From Natrialbaceae archaeon (lineage in GTDB: Archaea > Halobacteriota > Halobacteria > Halobacteriales > Natrialbaceae): DNA of 64,000 nt. The stretch spans positions 1-64,000 of the forward strand of contig PWMF01000192.1 of the NCBI GenBank assembly GCA_003559215.1, read 5' to 3'. Position 1 is the first letter of the stretch; every line of letters begins with the position of its first letter. Below, in pieces: positions 37,128-54,176 of the stretch. A program made the position numbers and the translations under genes. The notes below the pieces were generated by a model that was given only the letters and a program-made list of their open reading frames with translations, was not told where the DNA came from and did no database searches.

Positions 37128-38906
37128 ATGAATCGTCAGTCAACTACTCGACCATACGGCGTCGATCGGCGCTCAGTGCTGGCTGCGGGTGCCGCCGGAT
37201 TCGCCCTCGCGACCAGCGGCTGTATCGATCGCGTCGAGAGCGCCGTCGGACAGGATACGGACCGCCTTGCCCTCTCTATCACGACGGTCCCCGCGGACGG
37301 CGACAGGGAAGCCGTCCGGATCGCCCGCCACTTGGAGGCCCACCTCGAGGCGGTCGGAGTCGACGTCTCGATCGACATGCGTTCGCGCTCGAACTTTCTC
37401 GAGACCGTCCTGATCGACCACGAGTTCGATCTCTACGTCGGACGGCACCCAGCCGACTACGATCCCGACTTCCTCTACGAAACCCTGCACTCGAGGTACG
37501 CGAACGAATCGGGGTGGCAAAACCCCCTCGGCTTCTCGAGTATGCCCGTCGACGATCACCTCGAGGCCCAGCGGCGCGTCGACGGGGAGCGCCGACAGGA
37601 ACGGGTCGCAACGTTGCTCGAGGCGCTGGTCGAGAAGAAGCCGCTCGATCCGATCTGCTTTCCCGAGGAACACCGCGTGGTTCGAACCGATCACTTCGAC
37701 GGCTGGAGCCCCGACCACCCCGAGAGCCGCCACGGCTATCTCGGCCTCGAGCCGAACGAGGACGTCGATCGACTTCGCGTGCTGGTCACCGACGCCCGGA
37801 TCTCGCGGAACCTGAACCCGCTATCGGCGACGCTTCGCGAGCGGGGCTCGACGATCGATCTGCTGTACGACTCGCTTGCGACCGAACACGACGGCGAACT
37901 CGTCACCTGGCTGGCCGAGAACTGGGAGCTGACGGCGATCGAGGGAACGGAAGACGGTGACGCGAACACCGAAGCAGTGGTAACGCTCCGAGAGGACTGT
38001 CGGTTCCACGACGATGAGCCCGTTACCGCCGACGACGTCGCCTTCACGTATCGGTTCCTCGAGGATACGGCGCTCGGCCGGACCGAGTTCGCGTCACCGG
38101 CCCCTCGCTACCGGAGCCACGTCTCGACGCTCGAGGACGTCACCGTCGAGAGCGATCACGAACTCCGCCTCGAGTTCTCGGCCGGCTTCGAGGCCGCCGA
38201 ACGCGCCCTCACCGTACCGATCCTCCCCGAACATCGGTGGCGCGAACAGGTAGACGCCCGCGCCGAAAACGCCGAGGCGTTCACCGCGACGCAGGGTCAG
38301 TGGGGGCTCGTGACGATGGACAACGTCCCGGCGATCGGTAGCGGCCCGTTTCGCTTCGAGAGCCGGAGCGAGCGCGAACACCTCGCCCTCGAGCGCTACG
38401 ACGATCACTTTACCCGCCGCGAGGACGTCGACCTTCCCTCGGTCGGGGTCGAGCAGCTGCAGTTTGGGATCGATCCCGGCAGCGCCTCCTCAATCGAGCG
38501 CGTCGCGAACGACGGCGCCGACGTCACGGCGTCGATGCTCGAGGCCCACGCGCTCGATACGATCCCCGACGATCCGGTGGTCGACCATCTCGAGTCGCCG
38601 TCGCGATCGTTCTACCACGTCGGATTCAACGCGCGAATCGAGCCGTTCAGCAACCCCCACGCCCGACGGCTGGTTTCCGGACTGCTCGACAAGGCGTGGA
38701 TCGTCGAGGAGGTGTTCGACAGCCACGCCACCCCAACTGCGACGCCGCTTCCCGAGGAGTGGGTCCCCGACCGACTGGTATGGGACGGCGAGGATCCGGT
38801 CGCACCGTTTTTCGGTGCCGACGGCGAACTCGACGCCGAGGCCGCCAGGGATGCCTTCGAGGCCACCGGCTACCGGTACGACGATCAGGGGCGGCTCCGT
38901 CTGTAA
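37128..38906 (+). CDS. Family-5-like solute-binding lipoprotein, circularly permuted, copy 1
   Basis: The 592-residue protein has a Tat signal (DRRSVLAAGAAGFALATS) with lipobox Cys32. Residues 46-193 resemble the usual C-terminal part of family-5 peptide/nickel-binding proteins (AHLEAVGVDVSIDMRS, EFDLYVGRHPADYDPDFLY, then EAQRRVDGERRQERVATLL). Residues 214-592 match the usual N-terminal and middle parts (LNPLSATL, LYDSLATEHDGELVTWLAEN, LREDCRFHDDEPVTADDVAF, GSGPFRFESRSEREHLALER, FNARIEPFSNPHARRLVSGL). The protein ends at EATGYRYDDQGRLRL, where ordinary members go on. TATA-like GTAGCTATAC lies 24-33 nt upstream. It is 4 nt from a PAP2 gene. Confidence 0.85.
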   Translation: MNRQSTTRPYGVDRRSVLAAGAAGFALATSGCIDRVESAVGQDTDRLALSITTVPADGDREAVRIARHLEAHLEAVGVDVSIDMRSRSNFLETVLIDHEFDLYVGRHPADYDPDFLYETLHSRYANESGWQNPLGFSSMPVDDHLEAQRRVDGERRQERVATLLEALVEKKPLDPICFPEEHRVVRTDHFDGWSPDHPESRHGYLGLEPNEDVDRLRVLVTDARISRNLNPLSATLRERGSTIDLLYDSLATEHDGELVTWLAENWELTAIEGTEDGDANTEAVVTLREDCRFHDDEPVTADDVAFTYRFLEDTALGRTEFASPAPRYRSHVSTLEDVTVESDHELRLEFSAGFEAAERALTVPILPEHRWREQVDARAENAEAFTATQGQWGLVTMDNVPAIGSGPFRFESRSEREHLALERYDDHFTRREDVDLPSVGVEQLQFGIDPGSASSIERVANDGADVTASMLEAHALDTIPDDPVVDHLESPSRSFYHVGFNARIEPFSNPHARRLVSGLLDKAWIVEEVFDSHATPTATPLPEEWVPDRLVWDGEDPVAPFFGADGELDAEAARDAFEATGYRYDDQGRLRL

Positions 38907-38910
38907 CACG

Positions 38911-39774
38911 ATGTACGCCGAGGTTCTCACCCGGGTCCTGACGCAGGTCGCAGTCGTCGTCGGAATCCTGCTTCTGGTGGCGATCGCGCTGTTCGTCGGT
39001 CGCGGCCGCCTCGTCACAACCGCGCGGGAGTGGCGATCCAGACTCCGAATCACGGCACCCGCGATCTCGGTTCTGGCCGCCGTCCTGGTGCTCAACCGCG
39101 TCGTTCGCTGGCGTGGCGACGAGATCGAGGGCGCGATCGGGTTCCACATGACCGAGACGTTCTACGATCTGGAGGGGGAGTTCGTCCTGCTCTTCCAGTC
39201 GATCGCGACCGAGGAGCTGACCGCCTACTTCTCGTTCGTCTACGTCTACGGTTACGCGTTCCTCCTGATCTTCCCCGGAATCGCGTACTTCGCGCTGTCG
39301 AATACGCGGACCTTCCGCCGGCTGCTGACGGCGTACTCGCTGAACTACGTGCTCGGGCTGGCGTTTTACCTGGTAGTCATCGCCTACGGACCGCGAAACG
39401 TGATGCCCGAGGAGCTGACGGTGACGATGCTGTACGACAACAGCCCCGAGTACCAACACCTCACCCGCGAGGTCAACCGTAACACGAACGTCTTTCCCTC
39501 GCTGCACACCTCACTCGCCGCCACCGTCGGCATTTTCGCTTACCTGACGCGCTCGAGCTACCCCTACTGGTTCCCGGTCGCGGCCGCACTCGCGGTCAGC
39601 GTCGCGATCTCGACGATGTACCTGGGGATCCACTGGGCGATCGACGTCGTCGCGGGGCTCGCGCTCGCTGCCGTCTGCGTCCGGCTCTCGGGGATCCTCG
39701 TCGGCCGACGGCCGGTCGGCCGGCTCCGTCGGTACCTCGACCGGCGGTTGGTCTCGCGGGACGACCGGGAGTGA
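38911..39774 (+). CDS. PAP2/AUR1-like membrane phosphatase or transferase, copy 1
   Basis: The 287-residue protein has about six membrane helices. Catalytic parts of the PAP2 family are NVFPSLHTSLAATVG (PSxH) and AISTMYLGIHWAIDVVAG (R/S-x5-H-x3-D type), with the first motif reduced to AYGPRNVMPEE. This matches the inositol-phosphoceramide-synthase-like PAP2_3 branch, which moves or removes a lipid phosphate group with a His-His-Asp site facing outside. The start is ATG 38911, 4 nt after the solute-binding protein gene. Confidence 0.86.
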   Translation: MYAEVLTRVLTQVAVVVGILLLVAIALFVGRGRLVTTAREWRSRLRITAPAISVLAAVLVLNRVVRWRGDEIEGAIGFHMTETFYDLEGEFVLLFQSIATEELTAYFSFVYVYGYAFLLIFPGIAYFALSNTRTFRRLLTAYSLNYVLGLAFYLVVIAYGPRNVMPEELTVTMLYDNSPEYQHLTREVNRNTNVFPSLHTSLAATVGIFAYLTRSSYPYWFPVAAALAVSVAISTMYLGIHWAIDVVAGLALAAVCVRLSGILVGRRPVGRLRRYLDRRLVSRDDRE

Positions 39775-39828
39775 GCCCGAACGCAATACTGTTATACAGG
39801 CACTGGCTGAATTGAAGGTATCCACCGA

Positions 39829-41574
39829 ATGACCGACGGAACGCCGGCACCGTCCGAACGGCCACGAAGTCGGCGCGCGGTTCTCGCCGGAACGGCCGGG
39901 CTCGCCGTCGCGACCAGCGGCTGCGTTCGCCAGGTTCGAACCGTCGTCAACCGCGAGTCGGTCGACCAGCTCTCCGTGACCATCGTCACCCTGCCGGCCG
40001 ACGGCGACCGCGAGGGGATCCGCCTCGCACGGGAGGTCGCCGCCGTCCTCGAGGCGGTCGGGGTCGACGTCTCGATCGACATGCGTTCGAACGAGGAGTT
40101 CCTGCGAGCGGTCCTGATCAACCACGAGTTCGACCTCTACGTCGGACGCCACCCCGGAAGCACCGATCCGGACTTCCTCTACGAGGCGCTGCACTCGATC
40201 TACGCCGAGGAGTCCGGCTGGCAGAACCCCTTCGGCTACGCGAACCTGCAACTCGACGACCTGCTCGAGGCCCAGCGCCGGGCCGACGGCGAGGAGCGGG
40301 AGGCGGCCGTCGCGGAGCTACTCGAGGAGCTGGCCCGCGAACAGCCGTTCGTCCCGATCTGCGTGCCCGAAGAGCACCGCTTCGTCCGGACCGACCGCTT
40401 CGACGGCTGGGGCGAGGCCCACCCGGCAACCCGGCTGGGCTACCTCGAGCTCGAGGCCGGTGACGACGTCGACCGGCTGCGAACGGCCCACACCGACGCG
40501 CGCATCTCCGAGAACCTCAATCCGCTGACGGCCGAGTACCGCGATTACGAGCCGTTCCTCGAGCTGGTGTACGACTCGCTGGCGACCGAACGCGGCGGCG
40601 AGATCGAGCCCTGGCTCGCCGATGACTGGACGTACGACGACGGCACCCTCCGAGTACGGCTCCGCGAGGACTGCCGGTTCCACGACGACGAACCGCTCGA
40701 CGTCGACGACGTCGAGTTTACTTACCGGTTGCTGCAGGACACCGAACTCGAGGGCGGCGAGTCGCCGTCGCCCCCGCCCCAGTACAGAGGGCTGGCGGCG
40801 GCCGTCGAAGCGATCGACGTCGACGGTCGCGACCTCGAGTTCGAACTCGATGCGGGCGAGGCCGTCGCCGAACGGGTCCTCACCGTGCCGATCCTCCCGA
40901 AACACGTCTGGGAGGACCGAGCTGCGCCCGCAAATATCAGGGGCGTCAGCGTCGCCCAGGGAGCCACCGAGGCGGTGACGACGGACAACGTCCCGCCGGT
41001 CGGCAGCGGGCCGTTTCGTTTCGAGGGACGAACCGAGCGCGAACACGTGACCCTCGAGCGCTACGACGATCACTTCACCCGCCGCGAGGGCGTCGAGCTC
41101 CCCGAGGCGAGCGTCGAGGAGCTTCGGATACAGATCGATCCGCGGAGCACGTCGGCGATCGAACTCGTCAACACCGACGGCGCCGATATCACGAGCGCGA
41201 TCCTCGAGACGTACGTCCTCGACGACATCGAGTCGACCCCGGAGACCGCGATGCTCGAGTCGCCGTCGTGGACGTTCTACCACCTCGGGTTCAACACCCG
41301 TCGGGCGCCGTTCGCCAACGCCCGGTTCCGACGCGCGGTCGCAGGACTGCTCGACAAGGACTGGCTCGTCGAGAACGTCTTCCACGGCTACGCCGCGCCG
41401 ACCGCGACGCCGGTTACCGAGGAGTGGACGCCCGAGGAACTCGCCTGGAACGGTGAGGACCCGGCGACGCCGTTTTTCGGTACCGACGGGGAGCTCGACG
41501 TCGACGCCGCCAGGGACGCCTTCGAGGACGCCGGTTTCAGCTACGACGACGGAGCGCTCCGGGTGAGACGCTAA
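39829..41574 (+). CDS. Family-5-like solute-binding lipoprotein, circularly permuted, copy 2
   Basis: The 581-residue paralogue of the gene at 37128 has the same build: Tat signal SRRAVLAGTAGLAVATS with Cys32, a C-terminal-type segment first (EVAAVLEAVGVDVSIDMRS, EFDLYVGRHPGSTDPDFLY), then the N-terminal-type segment (ISENLNPLTAEY, LVYDSLATERGGEIEPWLAD, LREDCRFHDDEPLDVDDVEF, GSGPFRFEGRTER). It ends DAGFSYDDGALRVRR. TATA-like GTTATACAGG at 39791-39800 shows it can be transcribed separately. Its stop overlaps the next PAP2 start by one base (TAATG). Confidence 0.85.
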   Translation: MTDGTPAPSERPRSRRAVLAGTAGLAVATSGCVRQVRTVVNRESVDQLSVTIVTLPADGDREGIRLAREVAAVLEAVGVDVSIDMRSNEEFLRAVLINHEFDLYVGRHPGSTDPDFLYEALHSIYAEESGWQNPFGYANLQLDDLLEAQRRADGEEREAAVAELLEELAREQPFVPICVPEEHRFVRTDRFDGWGEAHPATRLGYLELEAGDDVDRLRTAHTDARISENLNPLTAEYRDYEPFLELVYDSLATERGGEIEPWLADDWTYDDGTLRVRLREDCRFHDDEPLDVDDVEFTYRLLQDTELEGGESPSPPPQYRGLAAAVEAIDVDGRDLEFELDAGEAVAERVLTVPILPKHVWEDRAAPANIRGVSVAQGATEAVTTDNVPPVGSGPFRFEGRTEREHVTLERYDDHFTRREGVELPEASVEELRIQIDPRSTSAIELVNTDGADITSAILETYVLDDIESTPETAMLESPSWTFYHLGFNTRRAPFANARFRRAVAGLLDKDWLVENVFHGYAAPTATPVTEEWTPEELAWNGEDPATPFFGTDGELDVDAARDAFEDAGFSYDDGALRVRR

Positions 41575-42410
41575 TGTTGGTCCAGGTGCTGCTCCAGCTG
41601 GCCGTCGTCGTCACCCTGCTGACGCTCGCGGGGATCGCCGTCATCGTCGGTCGGTACCGACTCCGGGACACGCGCCACGAGTGGACGTCCCGGCTTCGCG
41701 CGGCCACCCCGATCACGGTCGTGCTCGCCGTCGTGTTGCTCGGCAACGGCGTCGCCAGACAGATCGTCCCCGACCTCTCCTGGATGATCGGCTGGAATCT
41801 CACGTGGGCGATCTACGACCTCGAGGGGCAGTTCATCCTCTGGCTGCAGTCCTTCGAGACGCCGGCGCTGACCGCCTTCTTCTCGTTCGTCTACATCTAC
41901 GGCTACGTCTTCCTGCTGATCTTCCCCGTGATCGCGTACTTCGCGCTGTCGAACACGCGACCGCTGCGGGAGCTGCTGACCGCGTACACGCTCAACTACG
42001 TGCTCGGAATAGTGTTGTACACGTTCGTCATCGCCTACGGCCCGCGAAACATGATGCCCGAACTCGTCGACGCGCTGATGTACGACACCTATCCACGCTA
42101 CCAGCACCTCACCCGGCAGGTCAACCGCAACACGAACGTCTTCCCCTCGCTGCACACCTCGCTGGCTGCCACCGTCGGTATCCTGGCCTACCAGACCCGG
42201 GAGGTCTACCCGCGCTGGGCCGTCGTCGCGGTCCCGCTCGCGATCAGCGTCGCGATTTCGACGATGTATCTGGGGATCCACTGGGCGATCGACGTCGTCG
42301 CGGGGATCGTCCTCGCGTACGTCTGCGTTGAACTCGCGGGCGTCCTCGTCGGTCGGTGGTCCGTCACCGAACGGTTCGACGTCGGAAGCCCACTCTCCCG
42401 GCTGCGCTGA
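41574..42410 (+). CDS. PAP2/AUR1-like membrane phosphatase or transferase, copy 2
   Basis: The 278-residue paralogue of the gene at 38911 has the same six-helix layout and motifs NVFPSLHTSLAATVG, AISTMYLGIHWAIDVVAG and AYGPRNMMPEL. The two copies are similar through the whole length, including FFSFVYIYGYVFLLIFPVI. Translation overlap with the upstream lipoprotein suggests that the products act together at the membrane surface. Confidence 0.86.
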   Translation: MLVQVLLQLAVVVTLLTLAGIAVIVGRYRLRDTRHEWTSRLRAATPITVVLAVVLLGNGVARQIVPDLSWMIGWNLTWAIYDLEGQFILWLQSFETPALTAFFSFVYIYGYVFLLIFPVIAYFALSNTRPLRELLTAYTLNYVLGIVLYTFVIAYGPRNMMPELVDALMYDTYPRYQHLTRQVNRNTNVFPSLHTSLAATVGILAYQTREVYPRWAVVAVPLAISVAISTMYLGIHWAIDVVAGIVLAYVCVELAGVLVGRWSVTERFDVGSPLSRLR

Positions 42411-53003: not shown

Positions 53004-54176
53004 TCAGTCGGCCGCGACCGCGGGTGCTCGCTCGCGCTGGCCGGCGGGGAACCAGGCCAGTTCGTGGTCGGCGGTGACCCGGACGGCGACACGTTCGTCC
53101 AAGTCGATCCGATCGGAGTGGTTGTGCATGCACTCGATCGTCTCGCCGGTGTCGAGTTCGACCCGGTAGAGCACCGTCGGCCCGAGATATCGGCGGTAGA
53201 CGACGGTGCCGTCGGCCGCGGCGTCGGTGTCTGCGGCCGGGTAGGCCGTCACGTCGTCGGGCCGAACGAGCAGGTCGACGGCGGTTCCGTCGTACTGCTG
53301 GGCGAGGCCGTTGACGTTGTCGCGTAACACCCGTCCGAGCGCGGTGTCGACGTGGTCGCCCCGGACGTCACCGGAGAGGAAGCTCGCGTGGCCGAGAAAC
53401 CCCGCGACGAAGCGGGACTCGGGCTGCTGAAAGACCTGCTCGGGCGTGTCGATCTGTTCGATGTTGCCGTCGTTCATCACGGCGACCCGGTCGGAGATCG
53501 ACAGCGCCTCCTCCTGATCGTGGGTGACCGAGACGGCGGTGACGCCGGCGGCCTTGATGATCCGGCGAACCTCCTCGCGCATCTCGACGCGCAGGTCCAC
53601 GTCCAGGTTCGAGAACGGTTCGTCCAGCAGTAACATCTCGGGTTCGGGCGCCAGCGAGCGGGCGAGCGCGATCCGCTGTTGTTGCCCGCCGGAGAGTTCG
53701 TCCGGGTAATCCTCGCCGTGATCCTCGAGGCCGACGAGCTCGAGCAGTTCGGCGACTCGCGCCTCGCGGTCGGGTTCGTCCCACTCCTGCAGTCCGAACG
53801 CGACGTTCTCGCGGGCCGTGAGGTGTGGAAACAACGCAAACTCCTGAAAGACGACTCCCGTTCCGCGTTCCTCCGGCGGGACGAACCCACCCTCGCCCGC
53901 GACCGGCGTCTCCTGGAGTCGGACCGCGCCCGCGTTCGGTCGCTCCAGCCCCGCGATCAGTCGCAGTGTCGTCGTTTTTCCGCAACCTGAGGGGCCCAGC
54001 AGCGTGAGAATTTCGCCGTCGCGAACGGACAGCGAGAGGTCCGAGATCACGTCCTCGGTACCGTACCGCTTCGCGACGCCGTCGAGTTCGAGCACGATGT
54101 CCTTGCCGGAGTCCGAAGAGGGGGTTCTCGACTGCCTTGCGTCGGTCGCCGACGTGAGTAGTTGTCCGTTCGCCAT
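53004..54176 (-). CDS. ABC transporter ATP-binding protein, iron(III)/polyamine type
   Basis: The 390-residue ATPase has Walker A LLGPSGCGKTTTLRL, Q-loop VFQEFALFPHLTA, signature LSGGQQQRIALARSL, Walker B MLLLDEPFSNLD and the H-loop VTHDQEEAL, followed by a C-terminal TOBE domain. This is the FbpC/PotA/CysA-like group. An iron-type operator overlaps its promoter, which favours Fe3+ uptake. No permease or binding protein is in the window, so it works with distant subunits. Confidence 0.88.
   Translation of the reverse strand: MANGQLLTSATDARQSRTPSSDSGKDIVLELDGVAKRYGTEDVISDLSLSVRDGEILTLLGPSGCGKTTTLRLIAGLERPNAGAVRLQETPVAGEGGFVPPEERGTGVVFQEFALFPHLTARENVAFGLQEWDEPDREARVAELLELVGLEDHGEDYPDELSGGQQQRIALARSLAPEPEMLLLDEPFSNLDVDLRVEMREEVRRIIKAAGVTAVSVTHDQEEALSISDRVAVMNDGNIEQIDTPEQVFQQPESRFVAGFLGHASFLSGDVRGDHVDTALGRVLRDNVNGLAQQYDGTAVDLLVRPDDVTAYPAADTDAAADGTVVYRRYLGPTVLYRVELDTGETIECMHNHSDRIDLDERVAVRVTADHELAWFPAGQRERAPAVAAD

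Follow-up and report, generated by a model that had tools for sequence, protein, structure and literature searches.

Sequence evidence for recurrent circular permutation of family-5 solute-binding lipoproteins in Halobacteria

Two solute-binding lipoproteins encoded in a stretch of 64,000 nucleotides from a Natrialbaceae archaeon (contig PWMF01000192.1; the whole stretch is referred to here as the window) are, with high confidence, genuine family-5 (cluster C) solute-binding proteins (SBPs) in which the chain has been circularly permuted. The initial annotation had proposed a real circular permutation for this pair. That observation is correct but understated, as the rearrangement is common in these archaea and has more than one origin. 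At the level of sequence, the chain order, the cut site, the breadth within the Halobacteria and the recurrence are established.

Both reading frames lie where the initial annotation had placed them, and the encoded proteins are 59% identical (Table 1). Reading of the sequences showed a twin-arginine (RR) signal and a lipobox cysteine at the same residue in each copy; judging from the RR motif and Cys32, both proteins are exported lipoproteins. Each copy is followed by a gene for a PAP2-type protein, so that one such gene sits between the two SBP copies; the initial annotation made no mention of these genes. A scan of the window for consensus promoters and terminators gave nothing useful for an archaeon.

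Table 1. Features of the two gene pairs in the window
Feature	Position	Strand	Basis
Copy 1, permuted family-5 solute-binding lipoprotein, 592 aa	37128..38906	+	ORF and profile matches
Copy 1, Tat-type (RR) signal and lipobox through Cys32, retained N-terminally	37128..37223	+	sequence; Cys32 invariant in alignment
Copy 1, C-terminal third in its new place, residues 43-188 (positions 363-502 of the ordinary profile)	37254..37691	+	profile match
Copy 1, linker from old C-terminus to old N-terminus, residues 189-218	37692..37781	+	gap between profile matches
Copy 1, N-terminal two thirds of the ordinary chain, residues 219-583 (positions 45-361 of the ordinary profile)	37782..38876	+	profile match
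PAP2-type integral membrane phosphatase/phosphotransferase, copy 1, 287 aa	38911..39774	+	4 bp past SBP stop
Copy 2, permuted family-5 solute-binding lipoprotein, 581 aa	39829..41574	+	ORF and profile matches
Copy 2, Tat-type signal and lipobox through Cys32	39829..39924	+	read from sequence; alignment
Copy 2, C-terminal third in its new place, residues 46-192 (positions 362-505 of the ordinary profile)	39964..40404	+	profile match; PDB profile search
Copy 2, linker, residues 193-210	40405..40458	+	gap between profile matches
Copy 2, N-terminal two thirds of the ordinary chain, residues 211-573 (positions 38-363 of the ordinary profile)	40459..41547	+	profile match
PAP2-type protein, copy 2	41574..42410	+	PF14378, 2.9e-20; start codon shares one base with SBP stop

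The reference for the usual order was a profile built from 24 ordinary family-5 proteins. Each window protein covers it in two pieces (positions 38-505 by copy 2 and 45-502 by copy 1), and in both the C-terminal third stands before the remainder, the usual N-to-C order being absent. The front and rear matches reached 1.2e-15 and 2.7e-51 for copy 2, and 5.8e-12 and 4.8e-38 for copy 1. The Pfam family PF00496 gave the same picture. Its positions 1-284 of 368 match residues 257-588 of copy 1 and positions 1-283 match residues 258-575 of copy 2, with scores (130.9 and 162.5 bits) above the gathering cut-off of 32.4 bits. Searched separately, the front segments match the end of the family, at positions 288-360 for copy 1 (E 1.2e-4 to 1.8e-4) and 290-359 for copy 2 (E 0.0057), both under that curated cut-off. 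The swap was reproduced by searches of the PDB (5u4o; 5isu). The claim that the segment behind the lipobox is the usual last third, and the rest the usual first two thirds, is borne out by these searches, and the swapped order leads us to file the proteins as a permuted variant of SBP_bac_5 (PF00496).

Neither of the two results that the initial annotation had named as refuting was obtained. A colinear alignment to family 5 is ruled out by the ordinary-profile and PDB searches. That a colinear family-5 protein has merely acquired an unrelated extra N-terminal domain has nothing in its favour and is as good as excluded by the PDB and Pfam matches of the first segment, which go to family 5, and by the fact that the ordinary core stops at the cut. 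At E<=0.01 a profile of the first segment finds 20 different sequences in the PDB, always from chain residue 315 or later; by name they are family-5-type binding proteins, together with LpqW and one unnamed entry (3rqt).

Structure prediction supports the view that the permuted chain would close into one family-5-like fold. The whole-protein model has a pLDDT of 86.9 and a pTM of 0.84, and the 10-residue blocks between residues 51 and 200 lie at 83-97. Modelled alone, the front segment reached a pLDDT of 69.6 and a pTM of 0.52, far weaker than in the whole model, and it therefore seems to depend on the rest of the chain. Sequential Foldseek comparison aligned 381-414 columns of the 581 residues in most of the 50 matches listed, with family-5-type structures, and the low-confidence model of the front segment alone also matched family-5 structures.

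The permuted order is widespread. The permuted family is strongly matched in 262 of the 391 genomes of Halobacteria, and among the 65 family-5 genes of 13 Halobacteria genomes 27 are permuted. The best 62 loci of a genome scan (L009-L070), labelled haloarchaeal save for one labelled Euryarchaeota alone (L056), all show the chain order of copy 2 when aligned to it; truncation or interruption affects three of them (L061, L064 and L068), of which the interrupted L068 was dropped. The permutation is therefore older than the Natronococcus/Natrinema duplication, in line with the proposal that it was fixed before the local duplication. The window genome is a draft of 222 contigs, which might raise the suspicion of an assembly or annotation artefact. 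This has a negligible probability, as the swapped order recurs in many independent assemblies, including complete chromosomes (L019, L025, L036, L044 and L070), the reading frames are open, and copy 2 differs from its L009 ortholog by 41 amino-acid versus 95 synonymous codon changes over 581 codons. By a simple pattern search, 96 of the 117 permuted entries carry a lipobox, as do 51 of the 63 labelled ordinary, the latter including a Bathyarchaeota protein with another cut (L077); some entries are therefore not clear lipoproteins by this test. In this classification L184, at first classed as 'other', was reassigned by hand to the permuted type, and one tandem gene was counted twice (L162 and L192).

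The closest comparisons between the two orders come from outside the window type. A single clade contains the permuted L096 and the ordinary L114, which are 72.7% identical in each segment and both head complete dppBCDF operons. Segment identities are 66.7% and 62.4% for the permuted/ordinary pair L193/L138, 63% and 57% for P0003/L112, and, less evenly, 43% and 31% for the more remote L183/L140. The signal peptides of same-family permuted/ordinary pairs are 49-82% identical. These pairs bear on the possibility of a chimera, in which one SBP gene supplied the C-terminal third and another the N-terminal part that now follows it. Haloarchaeal genomes can hold several family-5 genes (65 in the 13 genomes), and a close ordinary ortholog for comparison is lacking in the window clade. 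Yet in L096/L114 and L193/L138 the two segments are similar to one and the same ordinary gene to much the same degree, the signal peptide also matches it, and L096 and L114 head equivalent operons, which makes a chimeric origin quite improbable. The ordinary relatives nearest to the window clade are remote; permutation of one gene, as opposed to assembly from two SBP genes, is therefore demonstrated in the Dpp-linked clades only.

Judging from the tree and the cut sites, the permutation in haloarchaeal family-5 proteins arose more than once. Parsimony counts 10 changes of order in the tree, at least 6 of which are forced by starred branches; the tree stems from a quick search, with a program warning that long branches meet, permuted entries among them. 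To limit near copies it kept 19 of the 65 loci of L005-L007 and L009-L070, and it left out L077 and six P0003-type loci (L092, L099, L100, L105, L107 and L111). A single origin of all permuted forms as one clade was rejected by the AU test (p-AU 4e-39). In addition, the cut lies before the helix in L193 and L183, and after it in the window and P0003 types. Rejection of the single clade together with the differing cut sites thus argues for recurrence. A crude count places the earlier cut in 10 of the 117 permuted entries, eight of them of the window type, and the claim of an earlier cut relies on L183 and L193 only. Among the entries cut after the helix, an early permutation followed by several reversals may also account for the pattern.

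The likely route to a permuted chain would be a tandem gene duplication with in-frame fusion, after which the first copy would have lost its front and the second its back. The gene L192, in which two SBPs of 70% identity are fused in a single frame, looks like the expected intermediate. In the window proteins the Tat/lipobox signal has been kept N-terminally with the former C-terminal third directly behind it, a short linker bridges the old C-terminus and the old N-terminus, and the new C-terminus is at the point where ordinary members pass from a helix into the C-terminal third. The two-lobed ligand clamp would presumably still work, with the lipid anchor now hung from the lobe opposite to the usual one.

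The genomic context divides the permuted proteins. Permuted proteins of related haloarchaeal families lie within dpp operons and very probably serve transport; 32 permuted entries adjoin Dpp genes. Among the 85 without Dpp neighbours, an absence that holds by definition since Dpp-type and window-type were separated by Dpp-like matches, 73 have a PAP2 gene within 400 bp downstream, 11 directly follow one and a single entry lacks it. PAP2 is found downstream of none of the 63 entries labelled ordinary. The tree offers an independent check on this split: in the window clade 30 of 31 entries adjoin PAP2 and none adjoins Dpp genes. The window PAP2-type product matches PAP2_3 (PF14378) and retains the PSLHT and H..D motifs of PAP2_3 and PgpB-like phosphatases, although it scores far under the NCBIfam cut-offs for PgpB, undecaprenyl-diphosphatase and SepP.

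Gene order suggests a possible non-transport, perhaps LpqW-like, partner role for the window type. Tentatively, the lipoprotein could sense a ligand for the PAP2-type enzyme or deliver one to it. An orphan transport protein, feeding an unlinked ABC permease with PAP2 as a passive neighbour, is a realistic possibility at somewhat less than even chances: the predicted fold and the anchor are as in transport SBPs, other permuted proteins are located in dpp operons, and further Dpp systems are present in the window genome. Against it, 69 of the 70 window-type loci retain the pairing of SBP and PAP2, with genes that often overlap or nearly touch, no Dpp permease-like match was found within the window, and the sole Dpp-like match there is an ATPase-like stretch about 11 kb off. 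A history in which the chain was re-cut several times near one site, both orders head equivalent dpp operons and one branch quit transport as an obligate PAP2 partner is likewise a realistic possibility at somewhat less than even chances.

The window proteins share the sequence family, the lipoprotein-type signal, the predicted fold and the profile coverage of the SBP_bac_5/cluster C proteins (OppA, DppA, NikA, AppA), but differ in that the two parts are swapped and that the window type is not beside ABC permease genes. An ABC-type binding lipoprotein of Treponema pallidum, Tp0684 (TpMglB-2, 'Type Ic / Cluster Bc'), is reported to be naturally permuted in a circular manner, as are many of its relatives, and to have retained ligand binding (PMC4990184). 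That protein is bacterial, of cluster B (type I) and differently cut, whereas the window proteins are archaeal and of cluster C; their sequence and structure matches go to family 5 and not to the cluster B (type I) fold. Haloarchaeal family 5 also differs in having had more than one event and in that ordinary orthologs are still extant. No natural permutation in family 5 was found in the open PMC papers searched.

LpqW has a family-5 fold; to our knowledge it has no transporter, and we know of no report of its being permuted. Like the window proteins it is a lipoprotein, and its residues 409-482 are matched by the window first-segment profile (E 1.2e-5). In mycobacteria LpqW (PDB 2grv) steers a membrane glycolipid pathway, acting at the branch with PimE rather than with a PAP2 protein (PMC3229680; PMC10928101).

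How a natural circular permutation came about, and what it does, is not easily tested where it goes back to one ancient event. Haloarchaeal family 5 offers closely related permuted and ordinary proteins (73% identity) at the head of equivalent operons, a rearrangement that arose independently more than once, and a tandem fusion gene resembling the expected intermediate. A family match alone conceals the chain order of haloarchaeal binding proteins. The lipid anchor is apparently movable between the lobes while the gene remains with its transporter, and the PAP2-paired branch represents a candidate non-transport role for the binding-protein fold.

The initial annotation had proposed that the front segment of both lipoproteins is the usual last third of family-5 binding proteins and the remainder the first two thirds, and this is borne out in both copies by the tiling of an ordinary-order profile, built from 24 proteins (20 haloarchaeal and four bacterial; a fifth bacterial protein was omitted for its length). 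Residues 46-192 and 211-573 of copy 2 align with profile positions 362-505 (1.2e-15) and 38-363 (2.7e-51), and residues 43-188 and 219-583 of copy 1 with positions 363-502 (5.8e-12) and 45-361 (4.8e-38). The ordinary chain is thus covered by two swapped pieces nearly free of gaps and overlaps, the hallmark of circular permutation. The full proteins score 130.9 (copy 1) and 162.5 bits (copy 2) with PF00496 (cut-off 32.4); their C-terminal parts cover profile positions 1-284 and 1-283, and the front segments alone positions 288-360 (E 1.2e-4) and 290-359 (E 0.0057), both below the cut-off. The same swap is found against the solved structures 5u4o and 5isu (residues 224-549 to 31-321, 54-187 to 353-483). 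A search of the PDB with a first-segment profile of 51 sequences found 20 different sequences with E<=0.01. To judge from their names these are family-5-kind binding proteins, LpqW and one unnamed entry (3rqt), and all best stretches begin at chain residue 315 or later (e.g. 1xoc 369-495, 1dpp 357-487).

The AlphaFold2 model made on A2, the alignment of permuted relatives, reached a pLDDT of 86.9 and a pTM of 0.84; the pLDDT drops below 50 at residues 1-44 and 372-374. Foldseek, which aligns in sequence order, aligned 381-414 columns to family-5-type structures for most of the 50 matches listed, with TM-scores by target length of 0.37-0.52; this is what would be expected if only the larger piece of the chain can be aligned sequentially. 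Folded alone the first segment was poor (pLDDT 69.6, pTM 0.52), yet residues 51-200 score 83-97 per block within the whole-protein model, so that the segment seems to need the rest of the protein to fold. Each copy opens with an RR signal and a lipobox, and the lipobox Cys (residue 32) is present in all 63 rows of A2. On DppA the cut maps a little ahead of residue 357, which, judging by the lobe boundaries, we take to be in the lobe without the termini; the lobe crossings would be unchanged in number and the lipid anchor shifted to the opposite lobe. The single natural permuted ABC binding protein found in the openly licensed PMC literature was TpMglB-2, whose authors propose that the permutation may have been caused by anchoring to the membrane (PMC4990184). 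No report of permuted family-5 proteins was found among the titles and abstract openings listed by searches of that literature.

Coordinates of the genes and proteins discussed (in the window unless a locus, genome or contig is named)
Feature	Location	Strand or direction
Lipoprotein copy 1	37128-38906	same as other three cluster genes
PAP2-type membrane protein, first	38911-39774	same as other three
Lipoprotein copy 2	39829-41574	same as other three
PAP2-type protein, second	41574-42410	same as other three
ABC ATPase-like stretch	53391-54107	-
P0004, permuted, same genome	contig C144	
P0003, permuted, same genome	contig C184	
dppB-C-D-F operon starting with P0003	L090:5309-11750	
Bathyarchaeota permuted protein	L077:5221-7488	+
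Bathyarchaeota permuted protein	G702:C16:4676-6538	
Tandem family-5 ORF	L192:5111-8989, G002	-
Family-5 fragment	L125:11217-12290, G006	+

In the window, lipoprotein and PAP2-type genes alternate in a cluster of four, separated by 4 bp, 54 bp and, in the last pair, a 1-base overlap; the two lipoproteins are 59% identical. In the genome scan, copy 2 came closest to Natronococcus proteins (91-93% identity), which suggests that the window derives from a close relative of that genus. The scan gave 74 loci, 62 of which (L009-L070) are haloarchaeal by title (one merely 'Euryarchaeota') and aligned in copy-2 order, only partially so in L061, L064 and L068. Two further protein clusters recur near the pair, often on its upstream side: multi-pass membrane proteins that weakly match DUF6798/PTPS_related (22 loci) and arylsulfotransferase-like proteins (21 loci), each cluster named from one representative; possibly this is a surface-sugar or lipid context.

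At E<=1e-3, A2 found matches in 381 of the 391 Halobacteria genomes; as tallied by eye, the best E was <1e-100 in 262, weaker in 119, and ten had none. Of 392 genomes drawn from across the phylum, in which remote permuted families would escape A2, at least 96 matched at 1e-20, including at least 32 of the 311 outside Halobacteria, where all matches listed start at model position 205 or later and thus comprise the ordinary first part only. Seven family-5 genes occur in the window genome, and four are permuted (both copies, P0003 and P0004). Thirteen Halobacteria genomes contain 65 PF00496 genes (36 ordinary, 27 permuted, one tandem fusion and one fragment), with two or more permuted genes in eight genomes and none in five. 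Pooling all loci, a set partly picked with permuted queries, gave 184 distinct ORFs: 116 permuted, 63 labelled ordinary (including L077, which is permuted at a different cut) and five other (including L184, actually permuted). Near one permuted copy, on the opposite strand, lies the 357-aa fragment in L125, for which the family search reported an in-frame TAG.

Permuted and ordinary forms can be close relatives. P0003 gave 21 matches spanning the whole permuted protein in 194 Halobacteria genomes; in further genomes residues ~226-646 matched first and ~42-224 directly after, i.e. in ordinary order. The permuted L096 (in L124) and the ordinary L114 (in L129) are 72.7% identical over 414 and 72.7% over 183 residues (signal peptides 82%), and each is the first gene of a dppBCDF operon, whose products match their window-genome counterparts at 82, 73, 82-83, 68% and 83, 73, 81, 69% identity, respectively. 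Segment identities are 63% and 57% for P0003 versus L112, 67% and 62% for L193 versus L138 (signal peptides 76%), and 43% and 31% for L183 versus L140. The cut lies before the helix preceding the C-terminal third in L193 and L183, and after it in the window and P0003 types. A tree was built by a quick search from 119 proteins (57 permuted, 62 ordinary), all set in ordinary order; the program warned of long branches, and permuted rows are among these. On this tree the minimum was ten order changes, at least six forced by starred branches (shuffled mean ~40); the count alone does not separate gains from reversals. A single permuted clade cost 1136 log-likelihood units and is rejected (p-AU 4e-39). 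Together with the differing cut sites, this indicates that the rearrangement happened repeatedly.

A second, differently cut permutation is present in a Bathyarchaeota MAG and its kin, where the portion starting at roughly PF00496 position 141 comes first and the portion up to it second. P0005 was matched in 13 of the 61 genomes of this class, with clear junction-spanning matches in seven besides G702 (G740, G751, G727, G755, G722, G761 and G726). The L077 protein has a weak dockerin-like tail. As to the route, the ORF in L192, from a one-contig haloarchaeal genome, runs for 1292 aa and joins two family-5 proteins that share 70% identity over 521 residues. This layout is what would be expected of a duplication-fusion intermediate; L192 illustrates that type of gene and is not ancestral to the window genes.

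The gene neighbours divide the permuted proteins by Dpp matches, with a tree clade as independent check. Dpp-like genes adjoin 32 permuted rows, all four genes in 11 and two in 21 (short loci). The window type comprises 85 rows, with a PAP2 gene within 400 bp downstream in 73, directly upstream in 11 and none in one (L054); PAP2 was downstream of 0 of the 63 rows labelled ordinary. P0004, too, is followed by a PAP2 gene. In the clade with the window genes PAP2 adjoins 30 of 31 rows and Dpp genes none. The one Dpp-like match within the window is the ATPase-like stretch, 30-34% identical to the DppD/DppF of the same genome. The GPRN, PSLHT and H..D motifs are kept in at least 95% of 85 PAP2 sequences (79 distinct), and these proteins are therefore probably active enzymes. 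Since permuted proteins also adjoin Dpp genes, the permutation alone is compatible with transport, and it is the partner of the window branch that differs. It is possible, if somewhat doubtful, that the window-type lipoprotein serves an unlinked transporter. A role as partner of the PAP2 enzyme is about as likely and may be put forward tentatively; its nearest precedent is LpqW, a lipoprotein which steers a glycolipid intermediate to lipomannan and away from the PimE product (PMC3229680, PMC10928101).
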